From contig JALUYG010000347.1 in the NCBI GenBank assembly GCA_027013105.1, positions 1 through 33,325 on the forward strand: a stretch of DNA of 33,325 nucleotides, read 5' to 3'. The notes under the pieces are model-generated. The model ran no database searches and was not told the origin of the DNA. It worked only from the letters and a program-made list of their open reading frames with translations. The position numbers and the translations under genes were made by a program. The stretch is from Mariprofundus sp. Its GTDB lineage: Bacteria > Pseudomonadota > Zetaproteobacteria > Mariprofundales > Mariprofundaceae. This document shows positions 3,128 to 23,445 of the stretch, one piece after another. The stretch's first letter is position 1; each line of letters opens with the position of its first letter.

Positions 3128-3588
3128 TGCCAGGCAATAACCCCTGCCCATGCGGTAGCGGCAAATGGTTGTCCGCTTGCTGCCTGCCGATCATTGAATG
3201 CGACAGCGCCGCCACGGCCGAAGCGCTGATGCGCTCGCGCTATACGGCGTATGTATTGGGCAGGTGGGATTATCTGCATCAAAGCTGGCACCCGGATACG
3301 CGTCCGTCACGCGTTTCGCCGACCGATACCGACTGGCTGGGGCTGACCATTGTCAACGCCTCGACATCGACGGTCGAGTTTATTGCCGGCTTCCGCGAAC
3401 AGGGAAAAATCATGCAATTGCATGAAATCAGCCGTTTCCTGCAAGTCGGCAACCACTGGCGTTATCTTGATGGCCAGTGCGATGTTTCCGAAGCCGGTCG
3501 CAACACGCCATGCCCCTGCGGCAGCGGCAACAAAACCAAACGCTGCTGCGGCAAACGATTACCAAACGATGACCATTGGCAGAAATAA
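3127..3588 (+). CDS. ychJ: YchJ-family protein with SEC-C metal-binding motifs at both termini
   Basis: MPGNNPCPCGSGKWLSACC ... NTPCPCGSGNKTKRCCGK; ATG overlaps the ycgN stop (TGATG). Confidence 0.85.
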   Translation: MPGNNPCPCGSGKWLSACCLPIIECDSAATAEALMRSRYTAYVLGRWDYLHQSWHPDTRPSRVSPTDTDWLGLTIVNASTSTVEFIAGFREQGKIMQLHEISRFLQVGNHWRYLDGQCDVSEAGRNTPCPCGSGNKTKRCCGKRLPNDDHWQK

Positions 3589-3610
3589 AAAGCGGGGTAT
3601 ACTGCCGGCT

Positions 3611-4363
3611 ATGCGGCTGATCATGCTTGATACTGAAACCACCGGGTTATCGCCCCTCAATGGCGACCGCATGGTGGAGATCGGCGCTATCGAAGTGGTC
3701 AATCGCAAGGTGCTCTCCGGCGATGCGCATGTATTTCACCACTATATCAACCCGGAACGCGATATCCCGGCCGAAGTGGTGCGCATTCACGGCATTGATA
3801 ACGCTAAAGTGAAAAACAAACCCACTTTTAGGGAGATCGCCGGGGATTTTCTTAATTTTATTGCAGGCGCCACGCTGGTGATCCATAACGCCGCATTCGA
3901 TCTGGGCTTTATCATGCATGAGTTGCACCTGAACGGCTTCCCGAATATTCAGGATATCCCGGTCATTGATACGCTGGCCTTCGCCCGTAAAAAGCATCCG
4001 CACCAGAAGAATAACCTGGATGCCCTGTGCGACCGTTACGGCATCGAACGCGGCATGCGCGAACTGCATGGCGCCCTGCTCGACTCGCAACTGCTGGCCG
4101 AAGTCTACCTGGGCATGACCGGCGGCCGGCAATTCTCGCTCGGCATGGATATCCCCAGCCAGCCAGCTTCCGGCTTTGTGCAGTTGCCTGAACAGTCACG
4201 CGGCCGTGACGAGCAGATGGAAACCGCCACCCTGATGAAACGCAGCCTGCCGCCTGTCGGCGAAGAAGATCATCAGGCGCACCTCTCCATGCTGCGCCGT
4301 ATTCACAAAGAGAGTCAGGGGCAGACCATCTGGAAAGTCCCCGAACTTGCTGAAGTATCCTGA
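3611..4363 (+). CDS. dnaQ: DNA polymerase III epsilon subunit (3'-5' exonuclease)
   Basis: MRLIMLDTETTGLSPLNGDRMVEIGAIE, HNAAFDLGFI, exonuclease motif HGALLDSQLLAEVYL. Confidence 0.93.
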   Translation: MRLIMLDTETTGLSPLNGDRMVEIGAIEVVNRKVLSGDAHVFHHYINPERDIPAEVVRIHGIDNAKVKNKPTFREIAGDFLNFIAGATLVIHNAAFDLGFIMHELHLNGFPNIQDIPVIDTLAFARKKHPHQKNNLDALCDRYGIERGMRELHGALLDSQLLAEVYLGMTGGRQFSLGMDIPSQPASGFVQLPEQSRGRDEQMETATLMKRSLPPVGEEDHQAHLSMLRRIHKESQGQTIWKVPELAEVS

Positions 4364-4386
4364 TCAATCTCGTATCATCACGCCAT

Positions 4387-4460
4387 GCGGGTGTAGTTCA
4401 ATGGTAGAACGGCAGCTTCCCAAGCTGCATACGAGGGTTCGATTCCCTTCACCCGCTCCA
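4387..4460 (+). tRNA. glyU: tRNA-Gly, anticodon CCC
   Basis: 74-nt cloverleaf GCGGGTG...GGTTCGATTCCCTTCACCCGCTCCA with encoded CCA; anticodon loop TTCCCAA. Confidence 0.95.
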
Positions 4461-4470
4461 TATTTTTCCC

Positions 4471-5097
4471 ATGAATCGTAGCAGCAACGATGTTGCGCTG
4501 ACACTGGCGGATTCCGCCAATACCCTGCAGGCGCGCGGCGGTGAACTTATTCTGCTGAACGGCCCGAGCGGCAGCGGCAAATCGCTCTGGCTGCACCGCA
4601 TGGCCGAACTGGCGGCATTGCCGCCCGATATCACCATCAGGCTGACGCATGCCAACCAGGACGCGCCGGCCGTTCGCATGCTGTTTGATCGCTGGCCCGC
4701 CATCTGGCTGGGGCAAACGGTGAAAGAGGAGCTAATGTTCGGTTTGAATCGTCAACCGGCGCCGCAACTACTGGATCGCGCATTGCAGCAGTGGGGCCTG
4801 AGCGAAATCGCGCAGTCAACCGAGCTGCAGATGCTCAACCGCTTGCAATCCCTGCGCCTCTCTCTGGCCGCCATGAGCCTGGCGGATCCCGCTCTGGTTT
4901 TACTGGACAACCCAACCGCAGCCCTCTGCGAGAAGGATGCTCAGGCGGTGATTCGCGACATTCAGGACTGGCGGCAGCAGACCAATACAATCGTGGTCGT
5001 CGCCTGCAATCGCTGGCAGGATTGGCGTTTCAGCGCATCGCAATGTTGGCGTGTCAACGCCCCGGATGCACTGCCGTTACCCGGGGGGCCGGCTTGA
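4471..5097 (+). CDS. ABC-type ATPase-like protein with degenerate catalytic motifs
   Basis: Walker A GPSGSGKS and Q-loop region QTVKEELMFG present; signature reads LNRLQ, Walker B end LLDN, switch region VVVACNR. Confidence 0.7.
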   Translation: MNRSSNDVALTLADSANTLQARGGELILLNGPSGSGKSLWLHRMAELAALPPDITIRLTHANQDAPAVRMLFDRWPAIWLGQTVKEELMFGLNRQPAPQLLDRALQQWGLSEIAQSTELQMLNRLQSLRLSLAAMSLADPALVLLDNPTAALCEKDAQAVIRDIQDWRQQTNTIVVVACNRWQDWRFSASQCWRVNAPDALPLPGGPA

Positions 5098-6656: not shown

Positions 6657-8981
6657 TCAGGCCCGAACCGCAGCTTTCCTGCGGCGAACCATATAAAAAG
6701 CAGCCGCCAGCACCAGCACAGGTAGCAGTGGATCAACAGCATTGCCAGGCGACGCGATGGAACAGCCGCCGCCACCGCTGCCGGAACCGCCCAGCACTTG
6801 CGGCGCGCCACCCACGGCAATCGGATCGACAATCACGCCGTTGGCCACGCCATCCAGATCCAGAGGGCCGCCATCGGTGACGGAAATCACCACGATCGTG
6901 GGCGATACGACAGTGATTTTCGATAATGGAATCAGCGAATACGCTCCGGCCTTGTCGACCTTGTAAAACTGAGCCCCGCTGCCAAACGGAACGGAAGATA
7001 TGATGCGGATCGGCACATTCACGCCGCCCGACTTCACCCGGAAAGAGAGCACCCCGAAGGACTTCAATATATTGGCAGGCGCGCCTGCACCCGGCAAACC
7101 GACATGGAACTGATCGAGCAACTGGCCGCCGGTCGCCTGAACGCTATAAGTGACGCCGCCGTTTACTGATACATGAAGACCCGACACCCTGGAGCCGTCA
7201 TTCACCGTCACGGCATCTTCCAGCACATCAACCACGCCATCGCCATCGCTGTCACTGGGGTTATTGGAAAATACAACGCCCCAGGAGTCTGTCGAAACGC
7301 TGGATGGATTGCTCTTCGCCAGTTTGGGGTTGGAGCCTAACTGCCACTCCGTAAAGTCTGTCAGACCATCGCCATCAAAATCAGTGGGAGGGCCAACTGC
7401 AAATGGCACTGCGGGCGGCACCACAGGCAATGGAACCGGCGTCACCAGCGGGCCATTGGCCGTGGTCAGGTTGCCAAAGATCGCCATCTCCCAGCTATCC
7501 GGAATACTATCAAAATCAAGATCGGCCCCGGCCTTGACCTGATTGGAGCCAACCACTGTCACCGTCGCCTGCGCCGTGCCCGTATTGCCTGCAGCATCGT
7601 GCGCCTTGAAGGTGATTTTGGTTTTTCCGATTGGCAGTTTAGCCGGCAGCGTCAACAGATCATATGAGACCTGCCCAACCACAGCCACATTATCTGTCGC
7701 GGTAGCGCCAGCCAGAAATGCCGACAGGCGCGGATCGTTACTGGCAACCCCTTCAAAATCGGTGGCCGTCAACAACAAATCGGCCGGCGGCGTCACAACC
7801 GGCGGCGTGACATCCGTTGTTGCCAGAGCCGGCGCCGGATCGATGATAATTGTCCGCGTTGCAGTTCCGGTGTTCCGCGGCGTGGCAAAATCCTGTACGC
7901 TGTATGTTTCGGTGTAGCTGCGTGCAACTGTCGTATCAAGCGGCGTCGGACTAAATGACGTGGTGATCGCGCCAGTGATATTGCCATCGATATTATCCAC
8001 TGCAATAGCGCCCGGATCGATATACAAACCTCCCTGAAGCACATGCACGATTGAGTTGCCAACCAGGCGCACTCGCGGCGCCACGGGATCGGGAGACCCC
8101 GGCACAGGGATGACGCCGACGCCGGTGCCCTGACTGATGGTCACGCCGGTTCCTGCTGCAACAGCGCCGGGCGTCGGCGTCAGGGCGACCATATTGGAGA
8201 GAATAATTGCAGAGTCTCTCAGCCCATCCACATGGTCTGCGATTGAAATCTTCAACGTATGCGTTGTCAGCGGCACCAACAGCGGTGCAAGAATCGTCTG
8301 GCGCGAAGACACCTTATCAAAGCCGGAAATGATCGTTCCCAGCGGCAGTGCGGCAAAAATACTGGTCGTATTGGCATTGGTCATGACCGTTGTAACCGGG
8401 TCCGGCTTGGCGAACTTTGCCACATTGACGCCATCAAGTATCACCACGGCGGCATCCCGAACAGCAGGAATCACGCCCAATGTTTCCTGCGTGGCAAAAA
8501 TCATATCCAGTGAAATATGCGTCATACCGGCTGGCACAGTAAAGCTGAACTGCAACGTGGCAGCATCCGACGTGGCGCCGGCGCCGGCAGCTATGGCGGC
8601 CTGCACATCCACATCGCCCGGAGTTCCAAGGGCATGACTGCCGCCAAGAATACTCCCGGTTGTCAACATAATGCCGGGAGCAGGCATATTCAGAGGCACT
8701 AAATTCACTGTGCCAAAGGCTATATTATTTACAAAACCGGACTGTGAAACCGCAGCCGTCGCTACAGAGGTCAAGGTTTCTGAACCAGGCACCACGGTAA
8801 TGTTTCCGGGTGGGGCATTCCCCACAAGTTGCGCCACCAGACTCCCGGCAGCCGTCGTCGCAGGAGGCACCACGGCCGCTGGCGTAACACTGGTCGCCGC
8901 TATGGAACTGGTCGATATCATACACAGGAAAAAGACCGAAAAAATAATTTTCGAACGCATCATAAACCTCATATCACGCAC
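6657..8981 (-). CDS. Secreted multidomain protein (choice-of-anchor L-like, Ig/HYR-like repeats, EF-hand-like calcium loops, choice-of-anchor U-like) with C-terminal Cys-containing sorting signal (JDVT-CTERM-like)
   Basis: Signal peptide MRSKIIFSVFFLCMISTSSIAA; DxDxDG loops (TDFDGDGLTDFTEWQLGSNP, SDSDGDGVVDV); DGGPLDLDGVANGVIVDP; C-terminus GGSGSGGGGCSIASPGNAVDPLLPVLVLAAAFYMVRRRKAAVRA. Confidence 0.8.
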   Translation of the reverse strand: MRDMRFMMRSKIIFSVFFLCMISTSSIAATSVTPAAVVPPATTAAGSLVAQLVGNAPPGNITVVPGSETLTSVATAAVSQSGFVNNIAFGTVNLVPLNMPAPGIMLTTGSILGGSHALGTPGDVDVQAAIAAGAGATSDAATLQFSFTVPAGMTHISLDMIFATQETLGVIPAVRDAAVVILDGVNVAKFAKPDPVTTVMTNANTTSIFAALPLGTIISGFDKVSSRQTILAPLLVPLTTHTLKISIADHVDGLRDSAIILSNMVALTPTPGAVAAGTGVTISQGTGVGVIPVPGSPDPVAPRVRLVGNSIVHVLQGGLYIDPGAIAVDNIDGNITGAITTSFSPTPLDTTVARSYTETYSVQDFATPRNTGTATRTIIIDPAPALATTDVTPPVVTPPADLLLTATDFEGVASNDPRLSAFLAGATATDNVAVVGQVSYDLLTLPAKLPIGKTKITFKAHDAAGNTGTAQATVTVVGSNQVKAGADLDFDSIPDSWEMAIFGNLTTANGPLVTPVPLPVVPPAVPFAVGPPTDFDGDGLTDFTEWQLGSNPKLAKSNPSSVSTDSWGVVFSNNPSDSDGDGVVDVLEDAVTVNDGSRVSGLHVSVNGGVTYSVQATGGQLLDQFHVGLPGAGAPANILKSFGVLSFRVKSGGVNVPIRIISSVPFGSGAQFYKVDKAGAYSLIPLSKITVVSPTIVVISVTDGGPLDLDGVANGVIVDPIAVGGAPQVLGGSGSGGGGCSIASPGNAVDPLLPVLVLAAAFYMVRRRKAAVRA

Positions 8982-8985
8982 CGCA

Positions 8986-9606
8986 TCAGAAGAACTTGTT
9001 CACCATCACACTGGCGCCGTAAAGAGATGCCTTGGATGTAGCGTTGGAGACAATGGAGAGCGGCACATTTTTCCAGTATTGAACCCACTCCACGCCGATA
9101 CTGCCCTTGCTGCGAAATTTATATTCCGCCCCGCCGCCATAACTGAAAGCGGATTTCCATGTCGTAATTGCCCCGCGCAGGCCGCGCGCGCTGGCGATTT
9201 GAAAACGCCCCGCAGTGCCGCCTACCAGGCCGTAAATCCTGAACTTCCGGCTCACAGGGTACTGAAATTTGAATAGGTAGGAGATGAAATTGGTGGTCTG
9301 TATCTCCAGATCAATCGGAGTGGCGCTGCCGATCGTGCCGGCAGGAAAGACGGTTGAAACACTGCCGCTCAATCCCGTACGCAGCTCAGCGCCCATATAT
9401 TGCTGGTAGTCGACACCGGCCTTGATGAAGCCCCCCCATGTCTTTTTGCTGAGCACCAGCGAGCCAAGCGCGCCCTGTTCGGAATACTTGGCGCCAAAAA
9501 GGCCGCCGCCCACGCCGACATAGGGCGTCAGGTCGTCCGCCTCTGCACGCAAAGCGCCACTGAACAGAAATAAAACCAGAAAAGTTACAATCCGTTTGCT
9601 CAACAT
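8986..9606 (-). CDS. Outer-membrane beta-barrel protein
   Basis: Signal peptide (MLSKRIVTFLVLFLFSGALRAEA), amphipathic strand pattern (TPYVGVGGGLFGAKY), terminal Phe (NKFF); 4 bp upstream of the secreted protein gene. Confidence 0.75.
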   Translation of the reverse strand: MLSKRIVTFLVLFLFSGALRAEADDLTPYVGVGGGLFGAKYSEQGALGSLVLSKKTWGGFIKAGVDYQQYMGAELRTGLSGSVSTVFPAGTIGSATPIDLEIQTTNFISYLFKFQYPVSRKFRIYGLVGGTAGRFQIASARGLRGAITTWKSAFSYGGGAEYKFRSKGSIGVEWVQYWKNVPLSIVSNATSKASLYGASVMVNKFF

Positions 9607-9756
9607 TTCCTCCGGAGTATGCAGCCGCTGTCGCCAAATGGCTCACACCATAGCAACTGAATTAATCGAGTAAAGAGTTAGATGAAAATTTACTGTAGCT
9701 TCTCCTGCCGGAAGATGCCGAACGGGTGATCATTACAGACGAGGGTAAGTCGTGCT

Positions 9757-11711: not shown

Positions 11712-12992
11712 TTAAACCACCATCCCCGCCCCAACGGTGTTGTTGGTAAATGTATCGATCACAATAAAGCTGCCGGTCGTACGGTTCTCCGCATAGCTAT
11801 CGCAGTGCAGCGGCTTCATCAGCTTGAAGGTGATCTGGCCGATTTCATTCATGGCCAACTCATCGGCCTCATCCTTGTTGAGCGTATGAATATCACGGCG
11901 AAAATCGATGCTGGCCACCATCGCTCTGACGCTGTTGGTGGTATGCTTCAGCAGGTATTTTTTTCGCACGGACAGCGGCTCATCGCCAATCCAGCAGACA
12001 TTGGCGGTCAGCTCCTTGCTGTCGGCGGTTTCATGGCCCGGGTGCACCAGCATATCGCCGCGCGACAAGTCGATTTCATCATTCAGCGTCAGCGTAATGC
12101 TCTGCGGCGCAAAAGCCTCGTTCAGATTGCCATCAAAGGTGACGATCTCTTTCACAGTCGAGCGATTGCCGCTGGGAATCGCCACCACTTCGTCGCCAAC
12201 CTTCACCGTGCCGGACGCAATCGTACCCATAAAACCGCGATAATCGGGCAGATCGGCCGTCTGCGGCCGGTTCACCAGTTGCACCGGCAAACGGAAGGGC
12301 TTTTTATCCACATCGTCCAGCACCGACAACCCCTCCAGCGTTTCCAGCAACGTTTGGCCCTCATACCAACCCATATTGTCGCCGCGCACAGCCACCATAT
12401 CGCCATCCAGCGCCGACATCGGAATACAGATCAGATTCTTCACCCCCTGCCTGGCGCAGTAGTCATTCATCTCATCGCGAATCTGTTCAAAAACCGCCCG
12501 GTCGTGATCAACCAGATCCATCTTGTTGACCGCCACAATCAGATGCGGAATCCCCAACAACCCCAGGATATGGGTATGTCGCCTGGTCTGCTGCATCACG
12601 CCGTTGCGCGCATCGATGAGAATAATGGCGGCATTGGCGGTTGAGGCGCCGGTCACCATATTGCGCGTGTACTGCTCATGGCCCGGACAGTCGGCCATAA
12701 TAAACTTGCGTTTCGGGGTGGCAAAATAGCGATAGGCCACATCGATGGTGATGCCCTGCTCGCGTTCGGCCGACAAACCGTCAGTCAACATGGCCAGATC
12801 AATCTCCGCCGCCGAAGCGACATGCTCCACCCCTTTCTGTTTGCGCACAGCCAGCAACTGATCCTCAAACGCCCCCTTGGTATCGACCAGCAGACGCCCG
12901 ATCAGTGTCGATTTGCCATCATCCACACTGCCCACCGTCACCAGCCGCAGCAGTTCGATCTCTTCAGCTACCTTGATATTAAGTTTAGTCAT
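11712..12992 (-). CDS. cysN: Sulfate adenylyltransferase subunit 1 (CysN GTPase)
   Basis: LLRLVTVGSVDDGKSTLIGRLL, EREQGITIDVAYRYF, DCPGHEQYTRNMVTGAS; ATG (MTKLNIK) at 12992 preferred over GTG at 13001. Confidence 0.93.
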   Translation of the reverse strand: MTKLNIKVAEEIELLRLVTVGSVDDGKSTLIGRLLVDTKGAFEDQLLAVRKQKGVEHVASAAEIDLAMLTDGLSAEREQGITIDVAYRYFATPKRKFIMADCPGHEQYTRNMVTGASTANAAIILIDARNGVMQQTRRHTHILGLLGIPHLIVAVNKMDLVDHDRAVFEQIRDEMNDYCARQGVKNLICIPMSALDGDMVAVRGDNMGWYEGQTLLETLEGLSVLDDVDKKPFRLPVQLVNRPQTADLPDYRGFMGTIASGTVKVGDEVVAIPSGNRSTVKEIVTFDGNLNEAFAPQSITLTLNDEIDLSRGDMLVHPGHETADSKELTANVCWIGDEPLSVRKKYLLKHTTNSVRAMVASIDFRRDIHTLNKDEADELAMNEIGQITFKLMKPLHCDSYAENRTTGSFIVIDTFTNNTVGAGMVV

Positions 12993-13008
12993 CTCTTTCA
13001 CCCTTCAG

Positions 13009-13079: not shown

Positions 13080-14003
13080 CTAGAAATACCCTTCTTTTTT
13101 CTTGTCTTCCATCGAATTGGAGCCGTGGTCGATGATGCGTGTTTCACGCTCCGAGCGGCGCGCTGCGGCCGCTTCAATAACAATCTCATCCATATTGGTG
13201 GCATCCGAACGCACCGCGCCCGTGCACGGGCTGCACCCGAGGGTGCGGAAACGGCTCATCACCATCTTCGGCTCCTCGCCTTCCAGCAGCTGATCCTGCA
13301 TCTCTTCATAGTAGGGAATCAGCAGATGCTTACGCTCCACCATCAATCGTTCCTTGGCAAAATAGAGCGGCACAATCGGAATGTTCTCTTCACGAATATA
13401 GAGCCAGATATCCATCTCAGTCCAGTTGGAGATCGGGAATACGCGCACGCTTTCACCTTCATGTATGCGGCCATTATAGATATTCCACAGTTCGGGACGC
13501 TGATTCTTCGGATCCCACTGGCCGAACTCGTCACGCATGGAGAATACGCGTTCCTTGGCTCGACTGCGCTCTTCATCGCGGCGCGCACCGCCGAAGGCGG
13601 CATCGTACTCACCCTCTTCCAGCGCATCGAGCAGCCCCTGCGTTTTCAACGCGCCGCAGCAGCGCGCCACGCCGTACTCCTTCGGATTCATGCCTTTGGC
13701 GATGGCCTCCTCATTGCGTCGCACAATCAGATTGGCGCCGATCTCCTTACAAAATGAATCCCGGAATTCATACATCTCCTTAAACTTGAAACCGGTATCG
13801 ACATGCAACAGCGGAAACGGCAATGGCGCCGGATAAAACGCCTTGCGCGCCAGATGCAATAACACGCTGGAATCCTTGCCCACCGAATAGAGCATGACCG
13901 GATTACGAAACTCCGCCACCACTTCACGGATAATATGAATCGACTCCGCCTCCAGCGCTTTAAGCTGCGTCAGTTTGTGTTCAGATATGTTACTTTCAGA
14001 CAT
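13080..14003 (-). CDS. cysD: Sulfate adenylyltransferase subunit 2 (CysD)
   Basis: [40 protein letters not shown]; start at [14 protein letters not shown]. Confidence 0.93.
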
Positions 14004-14120
14004 TAACGTCTCCTGCTTATCTATGATGAAGCCATCAACAACTTCACTTAAATCGTCATCATGGGAAAATCGTACAGTGGCGGCCATTATAGCAGAAATA
14101 AACCTGCGCGCGCGAACCGC

Positions 14121-16778
14121 CTATCCCAACGCCCCGCCGTTCACCCCAAAACCAATCAGCGGCCACCAGAATTGCACCAACAACACGAACAGCAGCAGCG
14201 CCGTCAGGGATAGCGCCGCGCCGAATCGCAACATCGCCAGGCGCTCCACAAAACCGGTGCCGAACGCCATGGCGTTGGGCGGCGTGCCCATCGGCAGCAT
14301 AAAGGCGAAGCCTGCAATAATACCCACCGACAGCGCCACCGCGAGCGGATCGATGCCGGCCGAGAGCCCTGCAGAAATCGCAACCGGCAACAAAATCGCC
14401 ACCGCCGCCGCATTGCTGACCCCTTCGGTTAAAATCAATGTCGCCAGCGTCATCACCACAATCAACGACAAGCCGGTCAGCCCGTGCGGCAACAACTGCG
14501 TGGCCAGCCACGCCCCCGCGCCGCTAACGCTCAACGCCGAGCCGACTGCAATGGCGCCGCCATACATCAGTACCACGCTCCAGCTCACATGCTGTTCAAT
14601 CTCATCCCAACGCACCAGTCTCAGCCCGAACATGCTCGCCACGCTGAGCAGCGCGATCGCAGCCAGCGAGGTGGAATGCCCGCCAGCCATCCAGGCGACC
14701 ACCGTCAATGCGATCAACCCACCCATCAACCAGCCGCGCAGCTGTAGGTTACCCAGCTCCAGTTGACGCTCTTCAATACACCGACGCGCTTCGCTCACAC
14801 TGATCCTGTCAAACGGAGTCACCATCAGCAGTAGCGCCATCGCCGCCAGCAGCATCAGCACAACCAGCGGCGCCGCCGCCAGCGTCCAGTCCAGAAATGT
14901 GAATGTACGGCCGGAAATCTGTTGCACCATGCCCAGCGCCAACGGCCCGCGAGCACCGCCCAGCAGCGTCATCACGCCGCCGATAATCGCCCCCCACGCC
15001 ACTGCAAAAAACAGCGACTGGGCATAACGATCACCGATCTTCAGATTCAGGTGGCGAACAATATCCCGTGCAATCGGCAGAAAGATCGCCGCCACAGCAT
15101 GTTCGGGCATGACAAAGGCCATCACGGCCGGCAACCACAGCATCACCATCAACAGCTGTTTCGGCCCCGACCCCAATCGATCGATCAACGCCAGCGCCAC
15201 ATGCTCCGACAAGCCGGTAGCGCGGGCGCCGGCCGCCAGCATAAATGCGCCCAGAATAAAAAACACCGCCGGCGTACCGAACATGCTGTACGCCTCGGCG
15301 GCCGGAACCACGCCGCTTAACGGCAGCAGCGCCAACCCCAGCAGCGACGTCACCGCCAACGGAATCAGGCCGCTCACCCACAACGCCAGACAGAACAGGA
15401 AGATCAACAAGGCATGCCAGCCCTGGCCGCTCAAGCCTGCCGGCGACTCCTGCAGGCCAGCCCACAGGCCAAGCAGCGAGAACAGCGTCAGGGCCGCAAA
15501 TGGCACGCCCTCTTTGGCCAGCGCCCAATGCAGCGACTGCTTGCCAGACCGCCTGCTCCGCGCATCCATCCTGCCGTTGGAACGCAGATAACGGCGCAGC
15601 CCGTCCATCCAGCCGGAAACGTGACGACCAAGGCTGGATGTGGCCACCTGCTCCGGCAGATAGGGCTCCTTACCCACCAGCAAGCCGCTCTCCATCGGTG
15701 TCAGCACCCGCCCCATATCACGCAAGCGGTGCGTCGGCATGCCGGAGGATTCCAGCAACTCATACTGCACCAGCAGCGCCTGCTCCACATCATCCAGACT
15801 GGCCAATGGGCAGTCGCTCAAAGCCGTGCCCGGCAGCGGGCGAAACGGCAGCAGCATCGGCACAATGCCCTGCCCGACCAGCATCTTCATGCCCGCAATT
15901 GTCGATTTCAGCGGTTCAAGCCCGACTATCAGGTGGCTAACCACCGCGCCGGAGCGAAACACCGAACGGGCATGGCTCAGCGCCCGGTATATCGCTTTTT
16001 GCCCGCCAATCGCCTGTTTGCCCGGACAGATTTCAGCAAAGCGATCGGCGTCATACACCTCGACATTACAGACAAAGACATCCAGCCCGGCTTCATACAA
16101 CTCATCGATGGCGGACAGATCGGACGGGGCGACGGTCTCCAGCGCAATCTGGCGATGGCCCAAGTGCTTGCGCAGCAGCGCCACAACCGCCACCAGCTTT
16201 CGCAGGCCGACATCATCGGACGGAGAGTAGCCGTTGTAGAGATAGACCGTATCCACTTCGCGTTCGGCCAGCGCCGCCCGCACTGTCTCCACCAGTTCCA
16301 GCGGATCGCGCAGCGGCGGTTCCGCCGCATTGAGCATTGAGTCGTACTGACAATACTGGCAGGCCTGACCCGGCTTATTGAAAAAGCCGCAGCCCAGAAA
16401 CGGATGTAAAATCAACAGCCGATCATGCAGCGCCGCGAAACTGCCCATGCGCGCGCCGCTACGGGTGGTTTTCTGATAAAAAGCCGGCGCCGGCAGCAGC
16501 GTGACCGGCGACACCTCGCCGGCGCAATGCAACTCTGTTTTATCGCCCTGATGATGCAACGAAAAGGTGCTCTTTTCAGTGTATGGCTGGCCGACCGGCA
16601 CCGTGCACATCTGGCCAGTCGGCAGCCGGATATCGAGCACTGTCTCAATCGCATTGGCCTGCGAAATCCATCTGGAGGCCTGCGGCAAGCCTTCCGGCAA
16701 CGCCACGCCCCGGCTAACCAGCGACAGCTTGGTGCGCCCCGGATTGGCAAACGGATGCAGATCAGTAATGGCGTTCAT
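14121..16778 (-). CDS. Fusion: N-terminal radical-SAM domain plus C-terminal SLC13/DASS-type anion permease
   Basis: N-terminal half has CGFFNKPGQACQYCQYDS (Cx9Cx2C) and radical-SAM barrel segments (VYLYNGYSPSDD, DVFVCNVEVYD, SHLIVGLEPLKSTIAGM); C-terminal half about 11 TMs with SLC13 features (ILTEGVSNAAAVAILLPVA, AFMLPMGTPPNAMAFG). Start assigned to MNAITDLHPF. Confidence 0.8.
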   Translation of the reverse strand: MNAITDLHPFANPGRTKLSLVSRGVALPEGLPQASRWISQANAIETVLDIRLPTGQMCTVPVGQPYTEKSTFSLHHQGDKTELHCAGEVSPVTLLPAPAFYQKTTRSGARMGSFAALHDRLLILHPFLGCGFFNKPGQACQYCQYDSMLNAAEPPLRDPLELVETVRAALAEREVDTVYLYNGYSPSDDVGLRKLVAVVALLRKHLGHRQIALETVAPSDLSAIDELYEAGLDVFVCNVEVYDADRFAEICPGKQAIGGQKAIYRALSHARSVFRSGAVVSHLIVGLEPLKSTIAGMKMLVGQGIVPMLLPFRPLPGTALSDCPLASLDDVEQALLVQYELLESSGMPTHRLRDMGRVLTPMESGLLVGKEPYLPEQVATSSLGRHVSGWMDGLRRYLRSNGRMDARSRRSGKQSLHWALAKEGVPFAALTLFSLLGLWAGLQESPAGLSGQGWHALLIFLFCLALWVSGLIPLAVTSLLGLALLPLSGVVPAAEAYSMFGTPAVFFILGAFMLAAGARATGLSEHVALALIDRLGSGPKQLLMVMLWLPAVMAFVMPEHAVAAIFLPIARDIVRHLNLKIGDRYAQSLFFAVAWGAIIGGVMTLLGGARGPLALGMVQQISGRTFTFLDWTLAAAPLVVLMLLAAMALLLMVTPFDRISVSEARRCIEERQLELGNLQLRGWLMGGLIALTVVAWMAGGHSTSLAAIALLSVASMFGLRLVRWDEIEQHVSWSVVLMYGGAIAVGSALSVSGAGAWLATQLLPHGLTGLSLIVVMTLATLILTEGVSNAAAVAILLPVAISAGLSAGIDPLAVALSVGIIAGFAFMLPMGTPPNAMAFGTGFVERLAMLRFGAALSLTALLLFVLLVQFWWPLIGFGVNGGALG

Positions 16779-16819: not shown

Positions 16820-19180
16820 TCAGATCGCAGAAATTTTCTCGACCCGGATTTTCCACTGGGTGTCGGAAATTTTCTCTTTCACATGCACTCTCTGGCCCTG
16901 CTCTTCGAGCGACAGCGGCACATTCTCAATCGGCGCGCCGTCATCCAGAATCACCTCCAGTTGCGCCCCGATCGGCATGGTCGAGAGCTTGATCTTCGTC
17001 TTCACAAAATTCATCGGGCAAGCCACGCCGGAGAGATCGAGCAGCACGACATCATCCGAAGCTGCTTCGGCTTTCACATCATCAGCAGGCTCTGCTTCAG
17101 ATGCTTCACCGCCATCCGCTTGCGGCACCGCTGCAAAGCGCACACCGGCCAGCTTCAGCCAGTCCGACTGCACATCGCGCAGCGCTGTCACGCCTGCCGC
17201 AGGATCGGCCAGGTCAATACTCATCAGCGCCGATTGCACAGCCTGGAAACCGGCCATCAATTCACTATCAGCCGCTGCATTGGCGGCCAGCAACCCGAAC
17301 ACCTGCGCATCTTCTTCCGGCGCCTCGCCAAACGGCACCAGAAATGCGCGCGCTGTCGAAATTGCCGAACGCCGCAACGCCGTCAGCGCCTCAGCCCAGA
17401 ACATCGCATCGATATGGGCGCGCGCAATCAGCATCTCGTATTCCGCTTCGGAGATCAGCGCATCGGACATCGACAGCACCGCACCGGCGCACTCGCCCTT
17501 CTTGTTGCCCCTGGTATTGAACGCCTCATTCTCACTCCAGTCGTAAATCAACCCTTCGACCTCTCCTGCATCGGCGACAAACGGCGCCAGAATGGCGGAA
17601 ATTCCCTCTTTGCCCAGACGCGTGGCCCAGTCATGCACCGACTCTTCACCATTGCGCCCGCTCTTATAGGCATTGAGAATGGCGATGCCCGCTTCGGGAG
17701 CATATTTGGCCGGCACAGGATCGGTGGCAAAAGCCAGCGGCGCGCCGGCCACGCCGGAACCGCCAAGATGCAGCTGATAATGCGGCACCGCCTGACCGGC
17801 CACCTTCTTGGCCATGCCGTGAAACCCCAGATCGGCAATATGGTGACGGGCGCAAGAGTGCTGACAGCCGGAGGCCTTAACGGTAATTCCGGCCAGTGTC
17901 GCATCGGTTTTGAAACCTTCCATCAGAGGTCGCAAGGCCGCCGCCAGACCGCGACTGGAGGTGATGCCCAGACGACAGGTTTCCGTACCCGGACAGGCCA
18001 CCACATCGGCAATCGAACGGGCATATTCGGTATGCAGACCGGCATCGTGCAGCAGCTTGAGCGCCGCATCGACCTTGTCCGCATCCACATGATTGATCAC
18101 CACGCCCTGCTCCGCCGTCACCCGCAGCGCCTCAACGCCAGCCGCACGCGCCGCATCGGCGACAGCATGGCACTGGGCCGGCGTCAGATCGCCACGAAAC
18201 AGATTGAGCAGTATCGCTTTCTTGCCGTTATGCTGATCCACCACACCGGATTTGGAGCACGGCAACGCACCGGTCGGCCTGCGCCAGCCGGCTTCTGCAT
18301 AACCATGATCATCGGCATGCGTGGATGCAATCACGGCGCGCTGTTTTTTATACTCTTCAATGAAGCCCTCCGCCCCGAGCTTCTGCGCCACATATTTCAG
18401 GCGGGCGCGAGCGCGGCGTTTGCGATCCGAATACTTAAAGTGCATACGCATCAATGCTTCGCCGACCAGCAGCATTTCGGACTCGGGCACGAAATCCTCC
18501 AGCAGCAGCGCACCCATCGGCTGTGACGACAAGCCGCCCGCAGCCCACACCTGAAATCCGTGGACGCCATCCTGTTCGGCGGCGATAAAACCGATATCAT
18601 GCATGCCGCCCAAGCCGCAATCGGTGGCGCAACCGGAGAAATTCACCTTAAATTTGCGCGGAAACTGCTGCGCCAGCGGATGACGCAGAAAATACTCGGC
18701 GAAACGACGCGCATGCACGCTCACATCGGCATGCTCCGCCGGACATGAGCCGGCCAGAAAACAGGAGGAAACATTGCGCACAGTATTGCCACAGGCCTCA
18801 CGCGTGGTTAGCCCGGCTGCATCGAGACGGCGCAGAAAAGCGACAACATCATCCAGCGCCACAAAATTGGCCTGAATATCCTGCCGCGTGGTGACATGCG
18901 CCAGCTTCTCGGGCGCTTCAGTGAGCGTGCCATCGGTTGGCAACTGACCAGTGTAATCCTCCACGCAATCACCGATCACATCGAGCTGATCCGGCGTCAG
19001 ACTGCCGCCCGGCAACTTGACACGCACCATCTGCACGCCTTCCTGACGCTGACCATAGACGCCCATCTGCAACCGAAACGGCGTAAACCGCTCTTCAGAC
19101 ATCGTGCCGGCGCGAAACGCCTTGTAGCCCGCCTCAAACTCATCCACATCGGATGTTTGCGTAAATTGAAACTCTGTCAT
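16820..19180 (-). CDS. Siroheme sulfite/nitrite reductase with C-terminal extension including a TusA-like domain
   Basis: Siroheme/4Fe-4S motifs NFSGCATDCGLGGMHDIGF, CPGTETCRLGITSSRG, SGCQHSCARHHIADLGFHG; C-terminus LLDLSGVACPMNFVKTKIKLSTMPIGAQLEVILDDG (TusA Cys-Pro motif). Confidence 0.88.
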   Translation of the reverse strand: MTEFQFTQTSDVDEFEAGYKAFRAGTMSEERFTPFRLQMGVYGQRQEGVQMVRVKLPGGSLTPDQLDVIGDCVEDYTGQLPTDGTLTEAPEKLAHVTTRQDIQANFVALDDVVAFLRRLDAAGLTTREACGNTVRNVSSCFLAGSCPAEHADVSVHARRFAEYFLRHPLAQQFPRKFKVNFSGCATDCGLGGMHDIGFIAAEQDGVHGFQVWAAGGLSSQPMGALLLEDFVPESEMLLVGEALMRMHFKYSDRKRRARARLKYVAQKLGAEGFIEEYKKQRAVIASTHADDHGYAEAGWRRPTGALPCSKSGVVDQHNGKKAILLNLFRGDLTPAQCHAVADAARAAGVEALRVTAEQGVVINHVDADKVDAALKLLHDAGLHTEYARSIADVVACPGTETCRLGITSSRGLAAALRPLMEGFKTDATLAGITVKASGCQHSCARHHIADLGFHGMAKKVAGQAVPHYQLHLGGSGVAGAPLAFATDPVPAKYAPEAGIAILNAYKSGRNGEESVHDWATRLGKEGISAILAPFVADAGEVEGLIYDWSENEAFNTRGNKKGECAGAVLSMSDALISEAEYEMLIARAHIDAMFWAEALTALRRSAISTARAFLVPFGEAPEEDAQVFGLLAANAAADSELMAGFQAVQSALMSIDLADPAAGVTALRDVQSDWLKLAGVRFAAVPQADGGEASEAEPADDVKAEAASDDVVLLDLSGVACPMNFVKTKIKLSTMPIGAQLEVILDDGAPIENVPLSLEEQGQRVHVKEKISDTQWKIRVEKISAI

Positions 19181-19266: not shown

Positions 19267-20088
19267 TTATTGCCCGAACTTGAGTTCGCAGGCCTGCTCG
19301 TAGGTGACCAGGTCGGTAATGGTCGGGTTTTCTCCGCACAGCGGACAGGCCGGATCCTTGTGCAGTTTCAATTTTTTCCACTCCATGCGCAACGCATCGA
19401 ACACCATCAATCTGCCAGCCAGTGAATCACCGATGCCTAATAATTCCTTGATCGCTTCCACCGCCTGAATGGTGCCAACCGCACCGGCCAGCGCGCCGAG
19501 AATACCCGCCTCGGAGCAGGAGGGCACCAGTCCTGCCGGCGGCGGTTCGGGATAGAGGCAACGATAGCATGGTGCGCCCTTTTCCTGATGCGGCTTAAAC
19601 GTCGCCACCTGCCCTTCAAAGCGAAACATGGCGCCGGAAATCAGCGGCTTCTTCTCGAAATAGCAGGCGTCGTTGACCAGAAAACGGGTCGGGAAATTGT
19701 CGCAACCGTCGATAATAAGATCATACTCACGAACAATCTCGCGCACATTCTCTTCCGTAATGAAGTAGTTGTAGGTGTTCACCTTCACATCCGGATTGAG
19801 CGCCTGCATGGTCTCGCGCGCGCTCTCCACCTTCGGCATGCCGATGCGATCCTGATTATGAATTATCTGGCGTTGCAAGTTGGACGAATCCACCACATCG
19901 GCATCGGCGATGCCGATCGTGCCGACGCCTGCTGCCGCCAGATAATAGGCAACCGGCGAACCCAGCCCGCCGGCGCCAATCATAAACACTTTGGATTCGA
20001 GCAGTTTAGACTGCCCTTCCGCGCCCACTTCCGGCAAAATAATATGGCGCGAATAGCGCTCGATCTGTTCTTCCGTAAAATCAATCAT
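19267..20088 (-). CDS. MoeB/ThiF/HcyF-family E1-like sulfur-carrier adenylyltransferase
   Basis: RYSRHIILPEVGAEGQSKLLESKVFMIGAGGLGSP, DGCDNFPTRFLVND, PEPPPAGLVPSCSEAGILG, CxxC zinc ligands CYRC and CPLC. Confidence 0.92.
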   Translation of the reverse strand: MIDFTEEQIERYSRHIILPEVGAEGQSKLLESKVFMIGAGGLGSPVAYYLAAAGVGTIGIADADVVDSSNLQRQIIHNQDRIGMPKVESARETMQALNPDVKVNTYNYFITEENVREIVREYDLIIDGCDNFPTRFLVNDACYFEKKPLISGAMFRFEGQVATFKPHQEKGAPCYRCLYPEPPPAGLVPSCSEAGILGALAGAVGTIQAVEAIKELLGIGDSLAGRLMVFDALRMEWKKLKLHKDPACPLCGENPTITDLVTYEQACELKFGQ

Positions 20089-20171: not shown

Positions 20172-21107
20172 TCAAACTTCGATGCCCTTGAATAGATCGG
20201 TGGACATATAGCGTTCGGCCATGGAGGGCAGAATCACCACAATGCGTTTACCTTGCATCTCCGGGCGTGCAGCCACCTTGAGCGCCGCCGCCACGGCTGC
20301 GCCGGAGGAGATACCGCCGGGAATGCCCTCTTCACTGGAGAGGCGACGCGCCATCTCAAAGGCTTCGTCGTTGGTCACTTTGACCGCGCCATCGAGGATA
20401 TCGACATTCAGATTCTTCGGGATAAAGCCAGCGCCGATGCCCTGAATCTTGTGCGGCCCGGGCGCTTCTCCGGAAATCACCGGCGAATCAGCCGGCTCCA
20501 CAGCAAACGCCTTAAAATCAGGGTTGCGCTGTTTGATCACTTCAGCAACGCCGGTAATGGTGCCGCCCGTACCCACACCTGCGACAATCGCATCAACATT
20601 GCCATCCGTATCGGCCCAGATCTCCTCGGCCGTAGTCTGGCGATGAACCTCCGGATTGGCCGGATTTTCAAACTGCTGCGGCATGAATGCGCCATCTGTT
20701 TCAGCGACAATTTCTGTAGCTTTGGCAATCGCGCCTTTCATGCCCTTCTCAGCAGGCGTCAATACCAGTTCCGCCCCCAGCAACTTAAGCAGCTTACGCC
20801 GTTCCAGACTCATCGACTCCGGCATGGTCAGAATACAACGGTAGCCCTTGGCGCGCGCCACAAAGGCCAGCGCAATGCCGGTATTGCCGGAGGTCGGTTC
20901 GACAATCACGCCGCCCGCCTTAAGGCGGCCATCGGCCTCCGCCGCTTCAATCATCGCCTTGCCGATGCGATCCTTGACCGAATTGAGCGGATTATAAAAT
21001 TCACACTTGGCAATGATTTCAGCCCCGGAATCCGCGCCAATCCGGTTCAATCGAACCAGCGGCGTATTGCCGATCGTTTCCGCTGCATTGTTATATATCG
21101 CCATCAT
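20172..21107 (-). CDS. cysM: Cysteine synthase (CysK/CysM family)
   Basis: [65 protein letters not shown]. Confidence 0.92.
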
Positions 21108-21436: not shown

Positions 21437-21676
21437 TCAGCCTTCGATCACATCCTGTTCGATGGGGGCCACTTTCACCCCCTGATCGGCCAGCCATGCC
21501 GTCGCCGCCTCGACCACGTCGCTTTCACCATCGATCTCCAGACCAACCAGCCCCATATGATTCTTCACTTCCGCAGTTCGAATGTTGGTCACCACATTGA
21601 ACTCCTTGCCCAGCTTCCAGATCAGCGGCTCGCGCACGGTCGATTCATCAAATGTCAGATATACTCGTAATTTCAT
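21437..21676 (-). CDS. Stand-alone NIL-domain protein
   Basis: MKLRVYLTFDESTVREPLIWKLGKEFNVVTNIRTAEV...GLVGLEIDGESDVVEAATAWLADQGVKV resembles the NIL domain of MetN. Confidence 0.8.
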   Translation of the reverse strand: MKLRVYLTFDESTVREPLIWKLGKEFNVVTNIRTAEVKNHMGLVGLEIDGESDVVEAATAWLADQGVKVAPIEQDVIEG

Positions 21677-21820: not shown

Positions 21821-22099
21821 TCAGCGACCGCCTGCGATGGCCGGCACGATGGAAACTTCATCGCCATCCTTCAATGCAGTACCACGCCCATCCATAAAGC
21901 GGACATCTTCATCATTGACATAGACATTCACAAAACGGCGGATCTCGCCGTTGTCATCACACAGGCGCTCTTTCAGGCCAGGATGCGCCGCTTCCAGATT
22001 TTCGATCACCTCACCGACATTGGCGCCGTCAATGGTCACTTCATCAGCGCCGCCGGTCAGCTTACGCAGCGGGGTGGGAATTCGTACAGATACACTCAT
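21821..22099 (-). CDS. CysO/MoaD/ThiS-type sulfur carrier protein, C-terminus -GGR
   Basis: [21 protein letters not shown]...[18 protein letters not shown]...[17 protein letters not shown]; closely resembles mycobacterial CysO. Confidence 0.88.
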
Positions 22100-22197: not shown

Positions 22198-23445
22198 TCA
22201 GGCTGCCGCCTGAAAACCATCGGCTTCAGCCAATGCATCAAAATCTTTCAGGCTGGCGTCGATAATGCGCGGCTTGTTAATAGCATCGAGCACCGCTTCC
22301 TGCGTTTTCAGGCCATTGCCGGTGATGCAGAGCACAATCGACTCGTCGCGTGGCAACTTGCCCGACTCAATCATCTTTTTGGCGCAGCCCAGCGTCACAC
22401 CGCCGGCCGTCTCGGCGAAAATACCTTCGGTTTCCGCCAGTAGTTTCATGGCATCAATCACTTCCTGATCGGACACATCTTCCGCCCATCCGCCGGTTTC
22501 ATTGATCACGCGATTGGCATAAAAACCGTCGGCCGGATTGCCGATCGCCAGCGATTTTGCGACAGTATCGGCGATAACCGGATGAATCAGGTCGGTGCCG
22601 TCCTTCACCGATTTGGCAATCGGCGAACAGCCGGTGGCCTGCGCGCCGTAGACAGCCGTGCCGTTATCCTCAATCAGACCCAGTTTGATAAACTCTTTGA
22701 TCGACTTGTGCACCTTGGTGCAGAGCGAACCCGACGCCATCGGCACCACCACATGCTTCGGCGCTTTCCAGCCCAGCTGCTCCATCATCTCATAACCCAG
22801 CGATTTGGAGCCTTCTGCATAAAACGGGCGCACATTCACATTCACAAAGGCCCAGCCATATTTGCCGGCCACCTCCGAGCAGAGACGGTTCACATCGTCA
22901 TACTTGCCCTTGATGCCGATAATACGCGTGCCGAAAATACCCGCGCCGAGCACCTTGCCCTGCTCCAGGTCGTGCGGAATAAACACATAGGACTCCAGCC
23001 CCGCCGCCGCCGCATTGGCCGCCACGGAGCCGGCCAGATTACCGGTCGAGGCGCAGGCCACCGTCTTGAAGCCAAACTCGACAGCCTTGGACAAGGCCAC
23101 GGAGACGACGCGATCTTTGAATGAGAGCGTCGGATAGCAGACCGAATCGTTTTTGATATAGAGCTCGGAGACGCCCAGCGCCTTCTCCAGGTTCTTCGCC
23201 CGCACCAACGGCGTAAAGCCGTTCTGCGCACCCACGCTCGGCTCGCCCTCGATCGGCAGCAGCTCTTTATAGCGCCACATCGTCTGCGGCCGCGACTCGA
23301 TCAGTTCGCGGGTAAAATAGCCATCGAGTTTTTCATAATCATAGACCACTTCCAGCGGCCCGAAACAGAACTCGCAAACATGCGTCGGCTGGATATCGTA
23401 TTCCTGACCGCACTCTCTGCATTTTAATGCACGAACTATGTTCAT
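22198..23445 (-). CDS. thrC: Threonine synthase-family PLP enzyme with N-terminal zinc ribbon
   Basis: CRECGQEYDIQPTHVCEFCFGPLE, PLP-lysine motif PTLSFKDRVVSVAL, ACASTGNLAGSVAANAAAAG, TETAGGVTLG-like FAETAGGVTLG; start MNIVRALKC after the riboswitch. Confidence 0.88.
   Translation of the reverse strand: MNIVRALKCRECGQEYDIQPTHVCEFCFGPLEVVYDYEKLDGYFTRELIESRPQTMWRYKELLPIEGEPSVGAQNGFTPLVRAKNLEKALGVSELYIKNDSVCYPTLSFKDRVVSVALSKAVEFGFKTVACASTGNLAGSVAANAAAAGLESYVFIPHDLEQGKVLGAGIFGTRIIGIKGKYDDVNRLCSEVAGKYGWAFVNVNVRPFYAEGSKSLGYEMMEQLGWKAPKHVVVPMASGSLCTKVHKSIKEFIKLGLIEDNGTAVYGAQATGCSPIAKSVKDGTDLIHPVIADTVAKSLAIGNPADGFYANRVINETGGWAEDVSDQEVIDAMKLLAETEGIFAETAGGVTLGCAKKMIESGKLPRDESIVLCITGNGLKTQEAVLDAINKPRIIDASLKDFDALAEADGFQAAA

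Follow-up and report, generated by a model that had tools for sequence, protein, structure and literature searches.

Results

Gene content of the locus

The window analysed here, a stretch of 33,325 nucleotides, comes from Mariprofundus, a member of the Zetaproteobacteria, which are marine iron-oxidising bacteria. On its minus strand, the frame 14121–16778 is open, with neither frameshift nor stop, and starts with an ATG at 16778; its product of 885 aa consists of a radical-SAM part followed by a permease of the DASS/SLC13 group. A preliminary description of the window, made from the letters alone and giving no strand, had proposed one continuous frame for a radical-SAM enzyme and a permease, lying between sulfite reductase and CysD, and both proposals were borne out. 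The fused gene, its parts and its neighbours are listed below.

14121–16778, minus strand: fused gene for a radical-SAM protein (NF045502 type) and a DASS/SLC13 permease, 885 aa (ORF, profile searches and relatives)
15579–16778, minus strand: radical-SAM part, about aa 1–400 (Pfam, NCBIfam, motif, AlphaFold and Foldseek)
15483–15578, minus strand: linker, about aa 401–432, variable and positively charged (conservation and codon comparison)
14121–15482, minus strand: DASS permease part, about aa 433–885, its onset being given as about 430–433 (profiles, motifs and fold)
22198–23445, minus strand: threonine synthase (ThrC), with which the conserved operon begins (profile searches and synteny)
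21821–22099, minus strand: ThiS/SAMP-type sulfur carrier with the C-terminus AIAGGR, directly after threonine synthase (neighbourhood comparison)
21437–21676, minus strand: NIL-domain protein (neighbourhood comparison)
20172–21107, minus strand: cysteine synthase, CysK type (Pfam and NCBIfam profiles)
19267–20088, minus strand: MoeB/ThiF-type activating enzyme (Pfam and NCBIfam profiles)
16820–19180, minus strand: NirA-like sulfite reductase with TusA, a sulfur carrier, fused at its C-terminus (Pfam and NCBIfam profiles)
13080–14003, minus strand, ORF opening at 14087: CysD, sulfate adenylyltransferase small subunit (ORF list and NCBIfam)
11712–13001, minus strand: CysN, sulfate adenylyltransferase large subunit (Pfam and NCBIfam profiles)

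Both halves of the product were recognised by profile searches. In Pfam, Radical_SAM (PF04055) was matched at residues 138–287 (E 1e-7, 32.7 bits against a gathering score of 29.5) and Na_sulph_symp at 445–876 (E 3e-60, above the cut-off), and in NCBIfam the matches were to variant_rSAM NF045502 at 63–322 (174 bits, cut-off 125) and to DASS TIGR00785 at 445–872 (260 bits, cut-off 199). Thus, the domain search proposed earlier as a check on the N-terminal half places that half under two radical-SAM profiles, and the second half is the complete SLC13/DASS transporter that had been described. The radical-SAM part has a beta-rich N-terminal portion and a barrel at about aa 115–320. When the full protein was modelled with AlphaFold, both domains were well formed, with their mutual arrangement not resolved (pTM 0.57). 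The charge of the linker is consistent with an N-in topology, in which the radical-SAM domain would be cytosolic. The whole is a new domain architecture assembled from known families.

A conserved sulfur-assimilation operon

The fused gene belongs to a co-directional operon with the order thrC, ThiS/SAMP carrier, NIL, cysK, moeB, sulfite reductase–TusA, radical-SAM–DASS, (cysH), cysD and cysN, which was retained in all 26 loci that span 15 kb or more. In these loci, cysD and cysN were present in 25, and cysH was found in the operon in 22 and was not found there in four. A DsrE-like gene and a second TusA gene are added in seven of the operon loci. The window and its close relatives have no cysH in the operon (gap 14004–14120); instead, the gene was found beside cysS and gltX, neighbours that were recognised by eye (positions 1529–2260 of locus L206), and strain PV-1 carries both copies. 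Since the cysH of the window is therefore located elsewhere in the genome, APS reduction is complete.

The operon combines assimilatory sulfate reduction with an apparent carrier-protein cysteine synthesis. The combination of a ThiS/SAMP carrier, MoeB and cysteine synthase suggests that cysteine, and perhaps homocysteine as well, is made with a thiocarboxylate carrier. The known CysO/SAMP loci for thiocarboxylate-dependent cysteine synthesis likewise hold a carrier, a MoeB-type activator and a cysteine synthase beside sulfate-reduction genes, whereas the zetaproteobacterial operon differs from them in its sulfite reductase–TusA fusion, its NIL protein and its radical-SAM–DASS gene. The NirA-like sulfite reductase–TusA fusion is conserved across the class, and it also occurs (39% identity) in one genome, G029, from another family of the Pseudomonadota. 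Elsewhere in the window (6657–8981, minus strand), a gene encodes a surface protein in which choice-of-anchor domains of types L and U are combined with an Ig-like domain and, as sorting signal, JDVT-CTERM.

Distribution and integrity of the fusion

A scan of species-representative genomes with radical-SAM patterns yielded 63 loci, with relatives named Mariprofundus, Ghiorsea and other Zetaproteobacteria. A few are labelled just "Proteobacteria", yet they cluster with the Zetaproteobacteria, as do all the others. The search for fused and split homologues, also proposed beforehand, gave an open fused ORF in 51 of the 63 loci and separate but adjacent halves in seven, the remaining five being truncated by contig ends. 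Among cultured isolates, the fused ORF is carried by M. ferrooxydans PV-1, M. micogutta ET2, M. erugo P3 and Mariprofundus sp. KV, and the fusion is also present in members of two further families of the order. Where the genes are separate, the stop of one and the start of the next overlap or almost touch (four loci checked).

Comparison of the window with its nearest relative (86% identical) showed mostly synonymous codon changes both in the radical-SAM part (140 versus 32) and in the DASS part (161 versus 79). In the linker, the corresponding counts were 6 and 14, so that its sequence drifts while the frame is kept. This linker, the sole stretch free to vary, falls within the region of about 15.45–15.55 kb that had been flagged earlier as a place where the frame should be examined, and it is in frame with the nearest relative. 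That the fusion is an artefact of assembly or annotation of two adjacent genes is therefore next to inconceivable: the frame is open in 51 independently assembled loci, cultured isolates included, and the junction varies yet stays in frame, while the sole point counted for the artefact is that adjacent separate genes do occur in seven loci. The separate-gene form corresponds to one change on the whole-protein tree and to two on the radical-SAM tree; because the outgroup branches are very long and the rooting is unreliable, the order of fission and fusion cannot be read from these trees. A role in defence was rejected, as PADLOC gave no match, and so was viral spread, as no relative was found among viral contigs.

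The radical-SAM part

No other segment of the protein is as conserved as the radical-SAM core (residues 126–322), where the mean identity to the commonest residue is 0.81, against 0.70–0.72 for the DASS part. The cluster-cysteine motif of this core is C130-X9-C140-X2-C143 (CX9CX2C), the spacing noted in the preliminary description, and all 49 rows of the alignment, those of Nit1C proteins included, have the three cysteines. Together with the PF04055 match, they place the protein in the radical SAM superfamily. Because the cluster cysteines are invariant and the segment is the most conserved one, the radical-SAM part is probably a catalytically active enzyme. Two further cysteines, C237 and C251, are invariant only within the Zetaproteobacteria and not in the Nit1C relatives; they are possible ligands of an auxiliary cluster or redox cysteines.

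The nearest described proteins are the MSMEG_0568/Nit1C radical-SAM enzymes (TIGR04043, within NF045502), which have in common with the zetaproteobacterial protein the CX9CX2C motif, the N-terminal region and the barrel, and which also pass NF045502. Their identity to it is 20–25%, however, and the zetaproteobacterial part scores 92.6 bits against the TIGR04043 cut-off of 303.7. The Nit1C proteins stand alone beside genes for a nitrilase, a GNAT protein and an AIRS-like protein, and no case of a transporter fusion or of a location in a sulfur operon was seen among them. The NF045502 profile scan outside the Zetaproteobacteria covered the Pseudomonadota, in which the proteins over the cut-off, among those inspected, were stand-alone, about 390 aa long and located in nitrilase-type clusters; the four stand-alone proteins tested all exceeded the TIGR04043 cut-off. 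As the zetaproteobacterial protein falls far below it, we regard this protein as related to, but distinct from, the Nit1C enzymes. Other phyla may contain separate radical-SAM and DASS pairs. In another family of the Pseudomonadota, a stand-alone NF045502-like protein, whose motif is CX3CX2C instead of CX9CX2C, is encoded beside a cyclase-like protein (positions 8539–9621 of locus L080).

The AlphaFold model of the radical-SAM part (pLDDT 87.6, pTM 0.87) matched, by Foldseek, HydE (E 4e-8), LipA (2e-7) and BioB (2e-6), and also PylB and ThiH; matches in the PDB to designed pentatricopeptide-repeat proteins were discarded as chance matches driven by repeats. The part thus has a fold group in common with the BioB/LipA/HydE/ThiH enzymes, along with a weak profile match to lipoyl synthase, but it differs from them in cysteine spacing and lies below all of their family cut-offs. 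The earlier label "Elp3-like" holds for the cysteine spacing and fails for the family, since no Elp3 family was among the profile matches and the relatives are the Nit1C proteins and the HydE/LipA/BioB/ThiH folds. Substitution for a missing LipA or BioB was also rejected, as LipA exists as a separate gene in 21 of 21 genomes and BioB is over its cut-off in 20 of them.

The permease part and its cargo

The second half belongs to the DASS/SLC13 family, as its profile match is full-length and exceeds the cut-off and its fold is of the DASS type; the full model matched, by Foldseek, NaCT, VcINDY and the human sulfate transporter NaS1. The two SNT specificity motifs at the substrate and sodium sites, typical of characterised DASS members (not of all), are absent. 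At the positions where VcINDY has SNT in the alignment, the DASS part has MPEH (557–560) and SNA (788–790), both kept in the relatives; the N-terminal radical-SAM fusion is a further difference from VcINDY, NaCT and NaS1. The replaced motifs mark a subgroup, and membership in the DASS fold family stands. With such motifs, the cargo and the coupling ion could be unusual.

Genome G029, the only one of its class that the search covered, carries the same operon, which there ends with sulfite reductase–TusA, ATP sulfurylase and a lone DASS protein, and which has no radical-SAM gene. This lone permease is 39% identical to the DASS part and has the PEHAVAA motif in common with it; a second DASS protein of the same genome also deviates from SNT (GEH, SNG). 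Because the relative in G029 stands alone beside ATP sulfurylase, without a radical-SAM protein, the permease would carry sulfate rather than an organosulfur compound. Of the two cargoes considered in the preliminary description, sulfate is thus favoured, with fair support from the operon context, and an organosulfur substrate is less so. No sulfate ABC transporter over the cut-off was found in 39 genomes of the family, and a SulP-family protein, present in every family genome examined, is a rival candidate for the sulfate carrier. The SulP gene of PV-1 is split into two overlapping ORFs (positions 3521–5051 of locus L205), and it is a single ORF in related genomes.

Discussion

The explanation that we favour, with modest confidence, is that the gene is an old, functional fusion typical of the class Zetaproteobacteria, made of a sulfate-type permease and a competent cytosolic radical-SAM enzyme. 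The DASS module would serve the assimilatory sulfate operon as its permease and import sulfate, or a sulfur oxyanion closely akin to it, via the elevator mechanism of SLC13 proteins. The radical-SAM module, which precedes the positively charged linker, would be kept on the cytosolic side of the membrane. There, it is predicted to bind a [4Fe-4S] cluster through C130, C140 and C143 and to cleave SAM, the resulting 5'-deoxyadenosyl radical then acting on a small substrate. As the G029 sister operon has no radical-SAM gene, the radical step would supplement sulfate assimilation without being one of its core steps. More tentatively, the radical reaction might serve the same pathway, and the fusion might keep the two modules equimolar and co-located; the target would then most likely be a small metabolite of sulfur assimilation or a part of the sulfite reductase–TusA–carrier (ThiS) relay, neither of which is singled out. 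It is rather unlikely that the enzyme acts directly on the cargo delivered by the permease, or that SAM chemistry drives or gates transport, a coupling of radical chemistry and transport that would be new to description.

Other roles for the tethered domain were weighed against this explanation. The permease might import an organosulfur compound, such as a sulfonate, from which the radical-SAM domain would cleave the C–S bond, passing sulfite straight to the neighbouring sulfite reductase. Such a cleavage is well suited to radical chemistry, in every locus the radical-SAM part has sulfite reductase as its immediate neighbour on one side and the permease on the other, and the DASS motifs are atypical; however, the same operon holds CysD, CysN and usually CysH, which are needed for sulfate alone, the sister operon couples a lone DASS protein with ATP sulfurylase, and these organisms are autotrophs in sulfate-rich seawater. 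We therefore hold organosulfur import to be unlikely. Somewhat more doubtful is a sensor, in which the radical-SAM fold would bind SAM and an oxygen-sensitive cluster and gate the permease, catalysis not being essential. Regulatory cytosolic domains are common in transporters, the tether here is covalent and on the cytosolic side, and SAM is a downstream end product of sulfur assimilation, but the constraint on the whole radical-SAM core and on all the cluster cysteines exceeds what a sensor needs, and in seven loci the domains are separate proteins.

The radical-SAM protein could also be a maturase of an operon protein, be it the ThiS/SAMP carrier, the sulfite reductase–TusA fusion or the permease itself, given that the operon linkage is strict and that LipA, which acts on protein-bound substrates, is in the fold group. 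Nevertheless, the carrier, the sulfite reductase and the permease all recur in the sister operon, which yet has no radical-SAM protein, and the profile searches gave no peptide-binding region of the SPASM or RRE type, so that we consider maturation quite improbable.

In the open literature searched, with most subscription journals outside its scope, there was no earlier report of radical-SAM–permease fusions or of the fusion protein in Mariprofundus, and the PV-1 genome paper (PMC3179512) makes no mention of it. Biochemical work on NF045502 proteins was likewise not found in that literature.

Under the favoured explanation of a functional, class-typical fusion, its class-wide retention inside an operon for sulfur assimilation suggests that a radical step connected with sulfur uptake has gone unrecognised. 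The Nit1C enzyme, which has been linked to the assimilation of cyanide, belongs to the CX9CX2C family, and this uncharacterised family gains here a second genomic context for working out its function.
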